Below, in pieces: positions 48,663-54,895 of a DNA stretch of 64,000 nt. The notes beneath the pieces were generated by a model, which worked only from the letters and a program-made list of their open reading frames with translations, did not search any database and was not told the DNA's origin. Position numbers and translations under genes: made by a program. Origin of the DNA: Rufibacter sp. DG15C (GTDB taxonomy: Bacteria; Bacteroidota; Bacteroidia; Cytophagales; Hymenobacteraceae); the NCBI RefSeq assembly GCF_001577755.1, contig NZ_CP010776.1, forward strand, positions 2,914,001 through 2,978,000. The letters are read 5' to 3'. Positions within the stretch are counted from its first letter, which is position 1; each line of letters begins with the position of its first letter.

Positions 48663-49073
48663 ATGTGGCAACCAATTTCAAGGCAAATGCACGGCGTAGC
48701 CGAGGCAGCGTATATTCCGGCCATGGCCTCTGCGCCAGAATCTATAGGGTTCACGAGACAAGAAACAGCCACCACCTTGTGCCGGGCCATTGGCGGCATG
48801 GCCTTGGTGTCTGCCTTGGTCACCAAAGCCGAGTGGGGTGCCGTACAAGTGGTACCGTATAAAGCGCATTTAGCCGTGGATGTGGTGACCAGTCTGTTTA
48901 CTTTGGCTGCCCCTTGGCTGTTTGGCTTCTCTCATCATGCAAAGGTCAGAAACACGTTCATTACCCTGGGCGTAACTGGCTTGGTGGTAAGTGCCTTGTC
49001 CAGACCAGAAGAGATGGACCCCATGAAAGAAAGATCCCTTCGAAGAAAAGCACAGGCGCTGCCAGCTTTATAG
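48663..49073 (+). CDS. Small membrane protein, SPW-repeat-like
   Basis: The 136-residue protein has three to four hydrophobic stretches. AAPWLFGFSHHAKVRNTF resembles the SPW repeat (SPWxxGF) of small membrane proteins, and the preceding helix VDVVTSLFTLAAPW fits. The N-terminal 40 residues are polar. The tail is basic. The function is unknown; the resemblance is moderate. Confidence 0.65.
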   Translation: MWQPISRQMHGVAEAAYIPAMASAPESIGFTRQETATTLCRAIGGMALVSALVTKAEWGAVQVVPYKAHLAVDVVTSLFTLAAPWLFGFSHHAKVRNTFITLGVTGLVVSALSRPEEMDPMKERSLRRKAQALPAL

Positions 49074-49139: not shown

Positions 49140-49179
49140 CCGTTTTTGGCCTGTTTTACAGAAAACAGGCCAAAAACGG
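49140..49179. repeat. Dispersed palindrome, copy 19 (perfect arms)
   Basis: CCGTTTTTGGCCTGTTTT pairs perfectly with AAAACAGGCCAAAAACGG around ACAG. It lies in the convergent gap, 23 bp before the CheB/CheR hybrid stop. Confidence 0.92.
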
Positions 49180-49202: not shown

Positions 49203-52200
49203 TTACTTAGGAAAGTACACCTTAAACGTGGTGCCTTTGCCTACTTTGGTGGACACCTCAATCTTTCCGCCTGCGTTGTGCACGATCTTTTTGACCATGT
49301 ACAAGCCAATGCCAGAGCCCTCTACGTGGTCATGGAAACGGGTGAACATGGAAAACAGCTGCTCTTCTTGCGTAGGGCTCATACCTAGGCCGTTGTCTTC
49401 TACTTTCAAAACACTGTACCCGCCTTCGGTGAGGCAGGTGAGGTGGATGTAGGGCTCCTGGTCCAGAGAGCGGTACTTGATGCTGTTGGAGATAAGGTTA
49501 TAAATAATGCTCCGGAGGTTTTTCTCAGAGAAGGAGATGATAGGGCAGTTGGACACGTCCACTTTTAACTGCACTCCAGACTCTTTAAACATCTGGTCCA
49601 AGTCCAGGACAACGTTCTCTATCAATTCGCCTACCTTGATTTTCTCTACCAGGCCATGCTGCTGGTTCTGGAGCTTGGTGACCTCCGTTAAGTTGTCAAT
49701 GGTCTTCTTGAACCGTTCCACCGCGCCTTGCATCATGCTGATAATCTGCTGCAACTCTGCTTGCTCAGATTCCTCTTCTGGGAGCTCCAAAAGAAGCTCA
49801 CGCAATAAGGCCTCTATGTTGAGGATAGGGGCTTTCAAGTCATGCGAGGCCGTGTAGACAAAGTTGTCCAGGTCCTCAATCACGCGCATGAGGTGGTCGT
49901 TGGTTTCCTTTAGCTTCTCCTGGGTTTCTTTGAGGTCTGTGAGGTCAATGAACGAGCCCAGCACGCGGTGGGGCATGTTGTATTCATTGTGCAGGATGTA
50001 GGCACGGTTGTAAATGTAGGCATATGAACCATCAGCGCGGGCCAATTTGAATTCTGCAATCCACTGGTCCTTGCCAGAGTTGATGGTCTCATTGATGCCG
50101 TTCATGACGCGCTGCCGGTCATCTGGATGGATCTTGGTGAGCCAGGAATCTATGCCGTTTTCCATCTCGCGGTGGCTGTAGCCCAGAATGGATTCCAGGG
50201 TATCACTCCACCAGAGTTGATTGTCTACCAGGTTCCAGTCCCAGATAAGGTCATTGGTAGCCTTAGAGACCAGCTTAAAGCGCTCTTGGCTGTCTGTGAC
50301 TTCCTTAGTTCTCTCTACCACCCGTATTTCCAGCTGGTTGTTTAGCTTGATAAGCTCCTCTTCGGCTTTCTTGAGGTCCTCATAGGCCATCAGGATTTTC
50401 TCTTCGCTTACCTTCTTGTCGGTGACGTCTGCCAAAGTCACGGTGAACCCATCGCCCATTTTCACGGCGGCAATCTCATACCAGGCGCGGGTGCCGTTAA
50501 AGTCCAGGAACTGCTCCAAGTGCAGCGGGCTGCCGGTCTCCACCACGCGGGCAAACTTCTTGAACAAACCATTTTTCTTGAGGAAGGACATGTCCTCCAT
50601 CACGCTTTTGCCCATGAGATGCGCCTGCGGCGAGCCCACCAGTTTCTCAGCTTGCTTGTTCAAAAGGCTCCACTCAAAATCTGTGATGACATTCTCTGCG
50701 TTGCGCACCGCCCTAAAGGCCATGATGTTGTTAAGCGAACTATTGAGAACGCCCTGCACCACATTGCTGAGGGTTTTCAGCGTAGTCACTTCCACAAAAC
50801 TCAGCACCACGCCGTCCTTGTTGCCGTCATGCTTAAGGTAGGGGATAATGCGCAATAGAAAATATTTACCATCCTGAGTTTCTACTTCCTGCTCTACCTC
50901 TACAGACGTATTGTTCACCTTCTGGATGTCCTCTAACAGGTTAGGGTAGCGCAGGTTGTGGGACAGGTGGTGGATGGGTCTGCCAACATCTATCTCAATG
51001 ATGTTGATGATGTTTTTGACCGCGGGGGTGAACTTCCGGATGATGAGGTGGTGGTCCAGGAAGAGCTGTCCAATGTTAGAACTCCGTATGTAGTTGTCCA
51101 GGTCCTCGTTGAGTTCCTGTAGCTCACGTATTTTTAACTGGTGCTCAGAGTTGACCGTGTGCAATTCCTCGTTCAAAGACTGCATCTCTTCATTGGAGCT
51201 CTGCAACTCCTCATTAGAAGACATGAGTTCCTCATTGGTGGACTGCAACTCTTCATTGGCGGTGCTCAAATCCTGAACGGTCAAATGCAGGCTCTCACGG
51301 GCTTCTTTGAGCTCAATCTCCATGACAGTGAGCTGCGTGAAATAGTCAGAGTCCTCCTCAGTGATAAGCGAGGGCTTCAGGTTTTTAAGCGAAGGGCTGG
51401 CCTTGCCCACTTCTTGCAACAGCACTAGGATGACCTTGGGCATGTCGCGGTCCACTGAGATGGGCTTCACCGACAGGTTCACCAACTGGTGTTTTTTGCC
51501 CAGCGTCATCATGACCTGCCGGGCCACTGGTTTCTGGTTTTTGAGCACCTTCCTGATGTCCACGCTCAGGGTAACGGCTAGTTCCTTGGGCACCATCTTA
51601 AGCAGGTTCAAGTGCAGGCGCTTGTCGGGTAGCTTTAAGAACCGGTTGATGTCTCCAATGCCGTGCAAGAGCTGGAAGTTGTCATCCACATACAGTCCCG
51701 TGATTTTAAACTCCTCGGCCACGGCGTCCATGAATTGGTCGTTGTAGCGCACCAGCTGTGAGTTCTTGAACGTAGGGCTGTGCTCCACCGGGAAGGAGTG
51801 GGCCTGGGGCGTAATGCCGTAATGCCGCTGGATGCCGCTTTTCTCTTTTATCTTCTGGAAGATCTTCCATTTGCGGTTGCGTTCCGCAAAGTAGGTTTTC
51901 ATGTCCCCAATATGCTCACTGGAGCCCAGAAACAAGTAGCCGTTCTGCTTGAGCGCGTACGGGAACACTGCCAACACCTTCTGCTGCAAATCTGGGTTGA
52001 GGTAGATAAGCATGTTGCGGCAGGTGATCAAATCCATTCTGCTGAACGGCGGGTCCTTTTGCAGGTCGTGCTGGGCAAAGACCACCAAGTTGCGGATGTT
52101 CTCCTTGACGGTGTAGCGGTTATCCTTCAGGAGAAAATATTTCTGGAGTCGCTCTGGGCTTATGTCTTTGGCAATGCTGGCAGAGTAGGTGCCTTTTGAA

Positions 52201-53285
52201 GCTGATTTAATGGCGCGCTGGTCAATGTCTGTGGCAAAGAGCTTGATTTTTGGCTCGCGTCCCATCTTTTCAAAACACTCTTGGAACAGAATGGCCAAGG
52301 AATACACCTCTTCCCCGGTACTGCAGGCAGTCACCCACACTTTTACTAATTCTTCTTCAGGAACACCGGCCACTATGTCTGGAATTACTTCCTGCTCCAA
52401 CAACTCAAACGCCTCTGTGTCTCTAAAAAATTTGGTGACGCCAATCAAGAATTCCTGCCACAACTTCTTGATCTCTGCCGGATGCTCATGCAGGTACGTT
52501 AAGTATGCCGGCAGTCCTTCTACCTTGAGCGTATCCATGCGCTTTTTCAAACGCCGGTAGATGGTGGCCTGCTTGTAGTTCTTGAAATTGGTCTGGGTAT
52601 GCGTGCAGATCAGATCCAGGATTTCCTTGAGCACTCCTTCATTCTCCTCGTCCAGGTCTTTCTCCAACAGGGTCTTTACCAGGGGAATCTGGCGGGTGTA
52701 TTCCATGATCTCACCGGGCATGCGCTCTGGTGAGAAGACATAGTCCACAAAGCCTGCTTCAATGGCGCTGCGGGGCATGCCGTCAAACTTGGCAGTGGCG
52801 GGGTCTTGCACCATCACCATGCCGCCGGCGTTCTTAATCATCTTCACGCCTTTGGTGCCGTCAGAGCCGGTACCGGACAAGATGATGCCAATGGCGTACC
52901 GGCCGCGGTCTTTGGCCAAGGATTCAAAAAAAACGTCTATGGCAAAGTTGGGCTCGCGGTTACGCACTTGGGTGACCAACTGCAGACGGCCGCGCTCAAT
53001 GGTGAGTTGTTTGCCGCTGGGCAACACGTACACGCAGTTAGGACGAGTGCGCATGTTGTCTTCGGCCTCTAGCACCTGCATCTGGGTATGCTTGGACAAT
53101 AGCTCCGCCATCAGGCTTTTATGGTCTGGCGAAAGGTGCTGGATGATGACAAACGAAAAGCTGGAGTTGTTTGGAAAATAGTCAAACAACTTATGGATAG
53201 CCTCTAAACCTCCCGCCGAGGCGCCAATTCCTACAAGGTAATGGTCAGTTTTAGGGGGTTTAACTGCTGGAAGCGTACTATTCAT
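49203..53285 (-). CDS. CheB-CheR-PAS-histidine kinase hybrid
   Basis: The 1360-residue protein joins, in order, a CheB methylesterase domain (triad S23 in GIGASAGG, H50 in IIQHLSPDH, D142 in GTGSDGT), a CheR methyltransferase domain (about 215-490; TACSTGEEVYSLA and ITCRNMLIYL), and a long coiled coil near 675-740 (NEELQSTNEELMSS). At least two PAS domains (about 740-1120), a HisKA dimerisation domain (H in TASHDLKAPI) and an HATPase domain (NSIKYR, VEDNGLGM, GSGIGLYMVKKIV) follow. No CheY receiver or methyl-accepting chemoreceptor is in the window. The ATG at 53285 is 54 bp from the phytochrome gene, so co-transcription is likely. Confidence 0.92.
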   Translation of the reverse strand: MNSTLPAVKPPKTDHYLVGIGASAGGLEAIHKLFDYFPNNSSFSFVIIQHLSPDHKSLMAELLSKHTQMQVLEAEDNMRTRPNCVYVLPSGKQLTIERGRLQLVTQVRNREPNFAIDVFFESLAKDRGRYAIGIILSGTGSDGTKGVKMIKNAGGMVMVQDPATAKFDGMPRSAIEAGFVDYVFSPERMPGEIMEYTRQIPLVKTLLEKDLDEENEGVLKEILDLICTHTQTNFKNYKQATIYRRLKKRMDTLKVEGLPAYLTYLHEHPAEIKKLWQEFLIGVTKFFRDTEAFELLEQEVIPDIVAGVPEEELVKVWVTACSTGEEVYSLAILFQECFEKMGREPKIKLFATDIDQRAIKSASKGTYSASIAKDISPERLQKYFLLKDNRYTVKENIRNLVVFAQHDLQKDPPFSRMDLITCRNMLIYLNPDLQQKVLAVFPYALKQNGYLFLGSSEHIGDMKTYFAERNRKWKIFQKIKEKSGIQRHYGITPQAHSFPVEHSPTFKNSQLVRYNDQFMDAVAEEFKITGLYVDDNFQLLHGIGDINRFLKLPDKRLHLNLLKMVPKELAVTLSVDIRKVLKNQKPVARQVMMTLGKKHQLVNLSVKPISVDRDMPKVILVLLQEVGKASPSLKNLKPSLITEEDSDYFTQLTVMEIELKEARESLHLTVQDLSTANEELQSTNEELMSSNEELQSSNEEMQSLNEELHTVNSEHQLKIRELQELNEDLDNYIRSSNIGQLFLDHHLIIRKFTPAVKNIINIIEIDVGRPIHHLSHNLRYPNLLEDIQKVNNTSVEVEQEVETQDGKYFLLRIIPYLKHDGNKDGVVLSFVEVTTLKTLSNVVQGVLNSSLNNIMAFRAVRNAENVITDFEWSLLNKQAEKLVGSPQAHLMGKSVMEDMSFLKKNGLFKKFARVVETGSPLHLEQFLDFNGTRAWYEIAAVKMGDGFTVTLADVTDKKVSEEKILMAYEDLKKAEEELIKLNNQLEIRVVERTKEVTDSQERFKLVSKATNDLIWDWNLVDNQLWWSDTLESILGYSHREMENGIDSWLTKIHPDDRQRVMNGINETINSGKDQWIAEFKLARADGSYAYIYNRAYILHNEYNMPHRVLGSFIDLTDLKETQEKLKETNDHLMRVIEDLDNFVYTASHDLKAPILNIEALLRELLLELPEEESEQAELQQIISMMQGAVERFKKTIDNLTEVTKLQNQQHGLVEKIKVGELIENVVLDLDQMFKESGVQLKVDVSNCPIISFSEKNLRSIIYNLISNSIKYRSLDQEPYIHLTCLTEGGYSVLKVEDNGLGMSPTQEEQLFSMFTRFHDHVEGSGIGLYMVKKIVHNAGGKIEVSTKVGKGTTFKVYFPK

Positions 53286-53338
53286 GGGCAATGGGGACAA
53301 AATGTCGCTCTGTTATATAAACTCCAGAGCCACAAATG

Positions 53339-54895
53339 CTAGTATCTCTCTTTAATGATTTTTTCAAGCACGGCATTGCGCAGGTTTTCGGCGGCTTCCA
53401 GTTCTTCTGGCAACCAGGGCATGGACGTATGCTTGACCGTCTCCTGGTAGGTGGCAAAAGAGTTTCTAGGGTGGTAGCTTTTACCATCTGGCTCCATCTG
53501 GATGGCCTGGTTGGGATTGCCGCCCCAGCTAATGGTCTGAATCACCTCTGGCCTGAACCCTAAAATGTACTCACCCTCCTCTGCGTTAATGGGCAGCACA
53601 ATCAACCCACTGGCCACCTCTTTGAACTCCTGACTACGCATGTACAAACTAGGCAGCGTGTCTGTGGCGTAGGTTTTGTCTGTTTTGTTGCGCTTTAGCC
53701 AATACACCAGCTCTTTCAAGCTTTGGTGGGTAGGCACCGTGCCGCTGGTCCAGATGCTACCCTCATACAACACGGCCACGCCGTCAATGTTTAAGAGCTT
53801 CTGCAGGTGGTCGCCTTCTTTTACCAAGCCATCGGCAAAGGTAGGGGAGGTGTAGAGCTGCTCCAGCAACTGCGCATGCACGTCCCGCAACTGCGCCCGC
53901 AACTCCATGGTCTTTTCCTTTTCTCTGGCCGCAATCTGCGCCGAAATAATCCCGGACAGCAGTTCCATCGCTGACCGTAGCTCGTAGCTTGGGCACTTGG
54001 GTTGCTTGTTATGGCAAGAGATGAGGCCCCACAACTTGTCATCAATGATGATGGGCAGAGACATGGACGCCTGCACTTTTAGGTTGCCCAGATACTCTAG
54101 GTGCACGCCTGCCACACTGCGCAAGTTGCAGTCAGACAAGTCTGTGAACCGGCTGGTAATTGGGTTGATGATGGGGATTAACCGCACCGGGGTATAGTCA
54201 CGAGCAGGAATTAAGCGGTACGGATTTTTGAAGTACAGGTCCCTGGCCTGTTTGGGTACGTCAGAGGCCGGAAAGCGCAAGCCCATGTAGTCATCCATGT
54301 CCAGCTCCCTTGCTTGGGCAATGACAATGCCGTTCCATTGCGGGTCAAACTGGTACATGAGGATGCGGTCAAATCCTGTTAGTTTTTTCAATTCATCCAC
54401 GCTGATCTGGCTCACCAATTGCGTGGTGGTGGCTTGTTTCAAGAGCGACGTGATGTACTTGATCTGCTGGTACAGGGCTATGAAGGAATCCTGGAGGGCG
54501 GGAGCAGGATTTTCCTCCAGCTCCAACAAAATGTAAGTTTCTTTTAAATGCGCCAGGGCCGTGAACTGGGTGGCCACGTCCTGCACCGTAAACGTCAAGG
54601 TAAACGGAATCTTCTCCTGATGGCTGGAGAGCTGTACTTTGGCCAGAAGGTCGGCTACTTGGGCTTCGGGCAGAAAATTGGCGATGGGTTGGCCCAGCAC
54701 TTCCTCCAAAGAAAGGGAAAGTATCTGCGTGACGTTCTCACTGGCCTGCACAATGCGCTGGTCCTGCGTAGAAAGCGTCAGGAGTACGCCGTGCGGTTGA
54801 ATGAGGTTGACCAGGTGCAACGGAATGCTTCCGCAGAACTCAGAGTCATAATTTTTTTCTATGGCGATGCCAATGGGGGCCTGTTTGTTTTCCAT
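53339..54895 (-). CDS. Bacteriophytochrome photosensory module without output domain
   Basis: The 518-residue protein has the PAS-GAF-PHY core of bacteriophytochromes and ends after PHY. The bilin-binding Cys is C21 (EFCGSIPLHL, then IQPHGVL). PASDVP (209-214, conserved Asp212), H265 in VHLEYL and H295 in SCHN match the chromophore pocket, and PHPRNSF-type HPRNSF near residue 480 marks the PHY tongue. No kinase domain is attached. Inference: it senses red/far-red light and passes the signal to the adjacent kinase hybrid. A heme oxygenase for biliverdin is not in the window. Confidence 0.92.
   Translation of the reverse strand: MENKQAPIGIAIEKNYDSEFCGSIPLHLVNLIQPHGVLLTLSTQDQRIVQASENVTQILSLSLEEVLGQPIANFLPEAQVADLLAKVQLSSHQEKIPFTLTFTVQDVATQFTALAHLKETYILLELEENPAPALQDSFIALYQQIKYITSLLKQATTTQLVSQISVDELKKLTGFDRILMYQFDPQWNGIVIAQARELDMDDYMGLRFPASDVPKQARDLYFKNPYRLIPARDYTPVRLIPIINPITSRFTDLSDCNLRSVAGVHLEYLGNLKVQASMSLPIIIDDKLWGLISCHNKQPKCPSYELRSAMELLSGIISAQIAAREKEKTMELRAQLRDVHAQLLEQLYTSPTFADGLVKEGDHLQKLLNIDGVAVLYEGSIWTSGTVPTHQSLKELVYWLKRNKTDKTYATDTLPSLYMRSQEFKEVASGLIVLPINAEEGEYILGFRPEVIQTISWGGNPNQAIQMEPDGKSYHPRNSFATYQETVKHTSMPWLPEELEAAENLRNAVLEKIIKERY

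Follow-up and report, generated by a model that had tools for sequence, protein, structure and literature searches.

A photosensory module and its partner gene

Two adjacent genes on the reverse strand of Rufibacter sp. DG15C (Hymenobacteraceae, Cytophagales) are the subject of this analysis: a phytochrome that stops where its photosensory part stops, and a large hybrid protein that unites a CheB methylesterase, a CheR methyltransferase, several PAS domains and a histidine kinase. Both lie in a stretch of 64,000 nucleotides that was analysed as a whole (the window), taken from a genome that consists of a single 4.14-Mb contig. An earlier sequence-only reading of the locus had proposed that the two proteins form a split red/far-red receptor. 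Here we find that the pairing is real and conserved and that, as far as the open-licence literature searched shows, such a putative two-protein phytochrome system is undescribed. The spacing of 54 bp given in that reading comes close to the measured one, which is 53 bp (53286..53338) to the ATG of the hybrid at 53285, or 38 bp to an upstream TTG at 53300; a consensus scan found neither a terminator-like nor a promoter-like site inside the 53-bp gap. Most counts below refer to a set of 80 genomes (the window's included), comprising 66 family members that carry phytochromes of this clade and 14 genomes from searches of the order and phylum, which represent five other families.

The phytochrome (53339..54895, reverse strand; 518 residues) is an outputless photosensory module of the bacteriophytochrome (BphP) type, in which PAS_2 (E = 5.6e-18), GAF (1e-12) and PHY (9.2e-52) all pass their Pfam cut-offs. 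As the earlier reading held, the Pfam scan found no kinase or other output domain on the C-terminal side of PHY. The genome has no second PHY match at E <= 0.001. The closest solved chains are phytochromes, the best of which (9jry) covers residues 17-515; with the NCBIfam BphP model the protein reaches 293 bits, short of the cut-off of 1040. Cys21 (codon 54833..54835, reverse strand), which we take from the BphP literature to be the biliverdin-attachment cysteine, is a cysteine in 80 of 80 phytochromes of the clade. Equally invariant are Y181, W187, N188, D212, P214, Y221, R259, H265, S277, S279, H295, W457 and P476, so that the attachment cysteine, the D-x-P motif (D212, P214) and the two histidines (H265, H295) of a BphP-type pocket are each present throughout. 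The tongue of the PHY domain is nearly as constant (W457 in 80 of the 80, G458 in 70, G459 in 79, P476 in 80, and R477, S479 and F480 in 79 each); the roles of the pocket residues, like the W-G-G and PRxSF motifs of the tongue, are presumably those of known phytochromes. Fourteen aligned members share the end point and the C-terminal helix; in view of this constancy of length, together with the pocket kept in all 80, a truncation artefact was rejected.

The hybrid (49203..53285, reverse strand) measures 1360 residues from the ATG, or 1365 from the TTG, and it answers to its earlier description as a methylesterase, methyltransferase, PAS and kinase protein with no obvious light sensor of its own. 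Pfam places CheB_methylest at residues 18-193, CheR_N at 220-269, CheR at 283-473, PAS_10 at 729-834, PAS_4 at 868-958, PAS_3 at 1024-1110, HisKA at 1140-1207 (sub-threshold, with 20.8 against 26.9 bits) and HATPase_c at 1254-1359, and lists no GAF, PHY or other photosensor family; structure searches likewise return CheB, CheR and kinase structures. The CheB domain (52707..53234, reverse strand; PF01339, 3.6e-60) has no receiver domain at its N-terminus of the kind typical of CheB, as Pfam finds no Response_reg match in the hybrid. Its S23, H50 and D142, which we assume to correspond to the catalytic Ser-His-Asp of known CheB proteins, are each present in 78 of 78 hybrids, a number that leaves out the two-frame hybrid of locus L094 and the frameshifted one of L181. 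CheR_N and CheR (51867..52628, reverse strand; PF03705 and PF01739; Foldseek matches 5ftw and 1af7) make up a methyltransferase with its S-adenosylmethionine-binding domain, in which the motifs ACSTGEE and RNMLIYL are mostly invariant across the 78. Between CheR and PAS_10 (50784..51101, reverse strand; PF13596, 6.6e-27) lies an alpha/beta domain, residues 506-626 (51408..51770, reverse strand), which is recognised from the secondary structure of an AlphaFold2 model and assigned to PAS by eye; Pfam does not recognise it in the window protein but does match the corresponding stretch of two paralogues (L156 and L166) to PF00989. The kinase (49209..49868, reverse strand) retains the phospho-acceptor H1148 as well as N1263, N1267, D1297, G1299, G1301, G1325 and G1327 in 78 of 78 hybrids.

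Ahead of PAS_10 the same model, built on 32 sequences, contains a single long helix of residues 644-735 (51081..51356, reverse strand), in which blocks score a pLDDT (per-residue model confidence) of 81-88 over residues 661-720 and of 44-74 at both ends; the overall pTM (global model confidence) is 0.38, and the placement of domains is not trusted. Within the helix, five heptads of the form EE[LM]x[ST]xN (residues 678-712; 51150..51254, reverse strand) form a candidate methylation helix. The stretch from 655 to 728 is the most conserved in the hybrid, with 35 of 74 positions invariant among the 78 and a mean identity to the window residue of 0.87, compared with 0.77 for CheB and 0.54 for HATPase. 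Moreover, an EE-repeat run of four to nine heptads, each opening with two Glu/Gln, is found in all 60 CheB-CheR fusions that were examined, of which 40 are linked to a phytochrome and 20 are unlinked paralogues; strict EE[LM]x[ST]x[NK] heptads number 5-6 in the linked hybrids and 2-6 in the paralogues. Eight paralogues were scanned with Pfam, and six have HATPase_c; the remaining two, L156 (from the window's own genome) and L166, are CheB-CheR-PAS_10 fusions of about 990 residues that keep the helix without a kinase domain. In a control set of eight PAS_10 proteins without CheB-CheR, drawn from the stronger PAS_10 matches with the weaker ones left aside, the helix was found in none of the seven that are informative, one of which is a plain PAS_10 kinase of the window's genome, and this control is limited by the fact that six of the seven have only 18-41 residues ahead of PAS_10 (L317 has 284). 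The eighth, L319, is uninformative because its frame opens at PAS_10 itself.

Conservation of the pair across three orders

Of 200 family genomes searched with the phytochrome, 163 had a match. Among the matches listed, at least 66 (the window's included) belong to this clade and have short frames of 512-581 residues; the other matches listed have 736-1037 residues, apart from that of genome G189 (528). Adjacency in relatives, which the sequence-only reading had named as a check, is complete: the hybrid is the same-strand neighbour of the phytochrome in 80 of 80 genomes, following it in 76 and preceding it in four. Three of the four reversed pairs overlap by 11 bp, and both genes of the fourth (L181) are frameshifted. 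Across the 75 pairs in which the phytochrome comes first and the hybrid is unbroken, the gap to the first possible start of the hybrid has a median of 42 bp and a range of -38 to 367. When flanking open reading frames of at least 100 residues around the 80 pairs were clustered, the phytochrome was present in 80 of 80, as was the cluster of the hybrid (92 members, other kinases included), and the next commonest clusters were a receiver-domain protein (17 of 80), an unrelated gene (13) and two clusters with 12 each, one of them heme oxygenase. The flanks vary and the pair stays, which rules out an accident of local synteny.

A further, named set consists of the best 80 of 560 phytochrome loci and overlaps with the first, so that the counts of the two are not additive. 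Among these best 80, a CheB-CheR neighbour accompanies 67 of 67 outputless phytochromes versus 0 of 13 canonical phytochrome kinases, the latter coming from Microvirga (11), Aerophototrophica (1) and a Bryobacterales metagenome-assembled genome (1). Some of the 67 loci are imperfect, namely L252 (cut by a contig end), L254 (a stop after 853 residues near a contig end), L243 (hybrid in two frames) and L261 (reversed and frameshifted). Duplicate loci (L097, L099, L100, L101 and L067, which repeat L178-L181 and L192) were not counted in this analysis. The pair is found in Cytophagales, Chitinophagales and Sphingobacteriales, in genera that include Rufibacter, Pontibacter, Adhaeribacter, Rhodocytophaga, Chitinophaga, Taibaiella, Mucilaginibacter and Pedobacter. 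In eight phytochrome-less genomes, out of 29 that were searched for CheB, there are only three CheB frames of more than 900 residues, all of them in a paralogue clade.

Genes for a receiver or for bilin supply accompany the pair in some lineages. In 14 of 80 loci a single-domain receiver, the type of CheY-like protein that had been suggested as something to look for, is encoded no more than two genes away from the pair (on its strand in 10 loci, on the other in four); the receiver domain was checked with Pfam for two of them. Heme oxygenase adjoins the pair in 12 of 80 loci, and at L178-L181 the genes run in the order hybrid, phytochrome, heme oxygenase, receiver. Across the 200 family genomes, profile A2, a heme-oxygenase model, finds the enzyme in 95, all of which bear a phytochrome. 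The genomes that bear a phytochrome and yield no BphO-type match number 68, with 16 from the genus of the window, 49 of the Pontibacter type (g3) and three of the Adhaeribacter type (g4). Sixty-two of these 68 carry the split phytochrome, whose pocket is invariant even though the BphO-type gene is missing from them. PF14518 was considered as a general replacement for BphO and rejected: among 15 pair-bearing genomes searched it has one match in the window genome and none in the other 14, 13 of which are also without BphO. PF14518 matches are found as well in G011, G005 and G026.

Several further observations concern the loci themselves. The hybrid of L094 (4726-8853) is encoded in two frames, one for CheB-CheR and one for the helix, PAS and kinase, which a natural split and a frameshift fit alike; L243 has the same two-frame hybrid on a contig of equal length and probably represents the same assembly. 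In G189, a 506-residue phytochrome frame (L068) falls among the canonical phytochromes and is not accompanied by a CheB-CheR hybrid. A second outputless clade (L110:2287-5308, L111:8060-11195, L182:6603-10343) adjoins heme-oxygenase-like genes and small proteins, one of which has a SpoIIAA-like match that narrowly misses the Pfam cut-off. In five of 80 loci (L040, L051, L052, L082 and L088) the split phytochrome is preceded by a protein of 112-150 residues belonging to one family, which by eye resembles the small proteins beside the second outputless clade; the L052 member has no Pfam match. At L103 (5956-13251) a phytochrome kinase of 2431 residues, in which about 1700 residues past the kinase match no Pfam family at E <= 0.01, has as neighbours a heme oxygenase gene and one that by eye resembles a receiver. 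Within the window, a SPW-repeat protein (48663-49073) is convergent to the hybrid, and between the two lies a terminator-like hairpin with an 18-bp stem (49140..49179), identified by consensus match.

Proposed signal transfer within the pair and its alternatives

We propose that the pair forms a single red/far-red receptor whose parts are made as separate proteins. Of these, the phytochrome would be the photosensory subunit, binding biliverdin at Cys21, and would upon photoconversion regulate the adjacent hybrid in trans through direct contact; the kinase of the hybrid would in turn phosphorylate a stand-alone response regulator. The argument for regulation in trans is that the genes are paired in all 80 of 80 genomes, in either gene order and in three orders of Bacteroidota, and that the pocket, kinase, CheB and CheR residues are conserved. 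On genomic grounds this putative trans function is well supported, and a two-protein phytochrome of this kind is, in our judgement, probably the best explanation of the locus as a whole. The split receptor of the sequence-only reading accords with the pairing in both orders and with the conserved residues, and is not more than partly supported.

Where the two proteins might meet is suggested by how they have diverged. Over 78 pairs, evolutionary distances between phytochromes correlate at 0.87-0.94 with those of CheB, CheR, the PAS-like linker, the coil, PAS_10, PAS_4 and PAS_3, and at 0.67 and 0.74 with those of HisKA and HATPase, values that include shared species history and that, at the kinase end, may be depressed by poor alignment in the longer hybrids. 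The hybrids of Chitinophagales, Sphingobacteriales and some Cytophagales have 1351-1619 residues and kinases just 22-28% identical to that of the window, and the three of this longer type that were scanned with Pfam (L095, L102 and L107) have extra PAS matches. Because the kinase end diverges and correlates less, the constant partner of the phytochrome appears to be the CheB-CheR-PAS part; the CheB-CheR-PAS-helix-PAS part is then the likelier docking side, since it is constant and tracks the phytochrome, and the kinase end diverges or is exchanged between lineages. In trees, a branch with a support of 43 separates the phytochromes of 40 linked loci from the others, and the branch that also holds L104 (an 862-residue phytochrome-PAS-kinase) has a support of 100, so that a strict single origin of the linked phytochromes is not upheld. 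The linked CheB-CheR halves require three label changes, compared with a mean of 17 in shuffles, and a single clade is neither shown nor, by the approximately unbiased test (p-AU 0.302), rejected.

Besides the shared history in these correlations, several observations weigh against the proposal. The statement that every outputless phytochrome pairs with a hybrid is false: three of three phytochromes from another outputless clade (L110, L111 and L182; 29-31% identical) have no hybrid in the fetched stretch. No receiver gene lies beside the pair at the window locus. The search for bphO, which the sequence-only reading had advised, was negative in the window genome, where two heme-oxygenase models (PF01126 and profile A2) found no BphO-type gene, though one adjoins the pair in other lineages and other types of enzyme are possible. 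With respect to the helix, the full methylation consensus of methyl-accepting chemotaxis proteins (MCPs), which we take to be [ASTG]2-xx-[EQ]2-xx-[ASTG]2, is found in 12 of 40 linked hybrids, the window's among them with one site at residue 674, and in 0 of 20 paralogues; as proof of methylation it fails in 48 of the 60 fusions. The occurrence of the helix in unlinked CheB-CheR fusions also means that it does not explain the link to the phytochrome.

A more speculative extension is that the hybrid modifies itself: its CheR would methylate, and its CheB demethylate, glutamates in the EE-repeat helix of the same protein, giving a kinase switched by the free phytochrome an adaptation to light of its own. 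The half consensus, Glu-Glu-x-x-small-small, occurs 3.4 times per coil on average compared with 0.3 in shuffles; the hybrid carries its own candidate substrate helix, and for that reason an outside target of CheB/CheR would not be required. The retention of the helix in kinase-less paralogues and the missing MCP-signal in three of 21 pair-bearing genomes also speak for this idea. We nevertheless hold such a self-adapting photoreceptor to be doubtful, and the helix to be a tentative candidate for a cis substrate; the limited PAS_10 control and the kinase-less paralogues pull in opposite directions here. A purely structural coiled coil, spacing the CheR side from PAS_10 without any self-methylation, is at least as likely, and we give it about an even chance. 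CheB and CheR would then act on another protein or be regulatory, and the phytochrome might still drive the kinase. The coil has in its favour that FixL, LOV-HK and similar PAS-helix assemblies are among the Foldseek matches of the hybrid model, that the full consensus is restricted to 12 of 60 fusions, that inter-domain placement is unsure at the stated pTM, and that the short controls may lack any N-terminal extension; it sits less easily with a stretch more conserved than CheB (0.87 vs 0.77) and with a helix that accompanies CheB-CheR in 60 of 60 fusions, the kinase-less L156 and L166 included.

Regulation of the hybrid by the phytochrome has its own competitor, in which the two are merely co-regulated, the hybrid sensing some other cue with its several PAS-type domains and the phytochrome signalling to an unlinked partner. 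CheB-CheR-PAS kinases without a phytochrome neighbour do exist, and contact within the split receptor is presumed. Pairing in 80 of 80 genomes and in both orders, the overlap of the genes in three genomes, and the absence of this hybrid type from eight of eight genomes that lack the phytochrome nonetheless make mere co-regulation improbable.

Still less probable is that CheB and CheR of the hybrid act on the chemoreceptor of the genome, whereby light would tune the chemosensory pathway. The earlier remark that no chemoreceptor is present is true of the window; the genome has one MCP-signal match, a protein of 1715 residues in a che cluster outside the window. That cluster (L176:4228-13709; C1:3292227-3301708 of the window genome) encodes an MCP with 12-13 HAMP matches, CheW, a receiver, CheB, a CheA-like kinase and CheC, and one MCP-signal match per genome was seen in 16 of 16 family genomes tested. 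The cluster has its own CheB and sits far from the pair, and no MCP-signal match was found in three of 21 pair-bearing genomes (99-100% complete); a chemoreceptor is therefore unlikely as the general substrate. A reading of the phytochrome as the truncated remnant of a phytochrome kinase, which its missing output and the lack of a BphO-type gene in the window genome might suggest, is very improbable in view of the end point and C-terminal helix shared by 14 aligned members and a pocket invariant in 80.

Relation to known systems and significance

Phytochromes are usually one-chain sensor-effector proteins, and BphP histidine kinases occur with BphO and a single-domain response regulator. The window phytochrome shares with BphP the PAS-GAF-PHY core, the N-terminal cysteine and the residues of pocket and tongue, and some lineages of its clade have heme oxygenase or receiver neighbours; it differs in leaving the output to a second protein, which has CheB, CheR and several PAS domains, and in that its genome has no BphO-type match. 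H-NOX/HnoK and NosP/NahK are familiar cases of a kinase regulated in trans by a sensor whose gene lies next to its own, and they have in common with the present pair the separate sensor beside the kinase; here, the sensor is a phytochrome, and CheB and CheR are part of the kinase protein. Chemoreceptor adaptation offers a parallel in the CheR and CheB families and in Glu pairs spaced by heptads, with small residues after them, whereas the hybrid has no MCP-signal, CheW or CheA domain and mostly departs from the full consensus. Unlinked CheB-CheR-PAS fusions of Bacteroidota have the same order of CheB, CheR, EE helix and PAS_10, and differ in their neighbourhoods, in their mostly separate branches of the CheB-CheR tree and, for L156 and L166, in having no kinase domain.

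In the available part of one study that used 19 Bacteroidetes phytochromes (PMC4422448), a PAS-GAF-PHY (PGP) and a histidine kinase (HK) segment were extracted from each sequence; since an HK was taken from every one, outputless phytochromes would fall outside that set. A CheB-CheR hybrid of Rhodospirillum centenum is mentioned in PMC2890560, and the part of that source that was available gives it no role. Among the open-licence papers found on phytochromes and CheB-CheR fusions, as far as their accessible text goes (PMC6194562, PMC1183210 and PMC11832031 included), the pair is not described, subscription literature being outside this scope.

A phytochrome clade that has its sensor as a separate protein, with one kind of partner in three orders, provides a natural split in which to study phytochrome signal transfer. 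For CheB-CheR-PAS fusions, to which the accessible literature found offers no role, the pair would supply a definite input, namely light, and the question of what the CheB and CheR of such fusions modify becomes directly testable. If self-adaptation were true, adaptation of the chemoreceptor type would be built into a light-regulated two-component kinase, and CheB-CheR-PAS fusions in general would, by extension, methylate themselves and serve adaptation independently of MCPs. Taken as a whole, the pairing in the relatives examined points to a two-protein way of sensing light that is little known and shared by a broad bacterial group.

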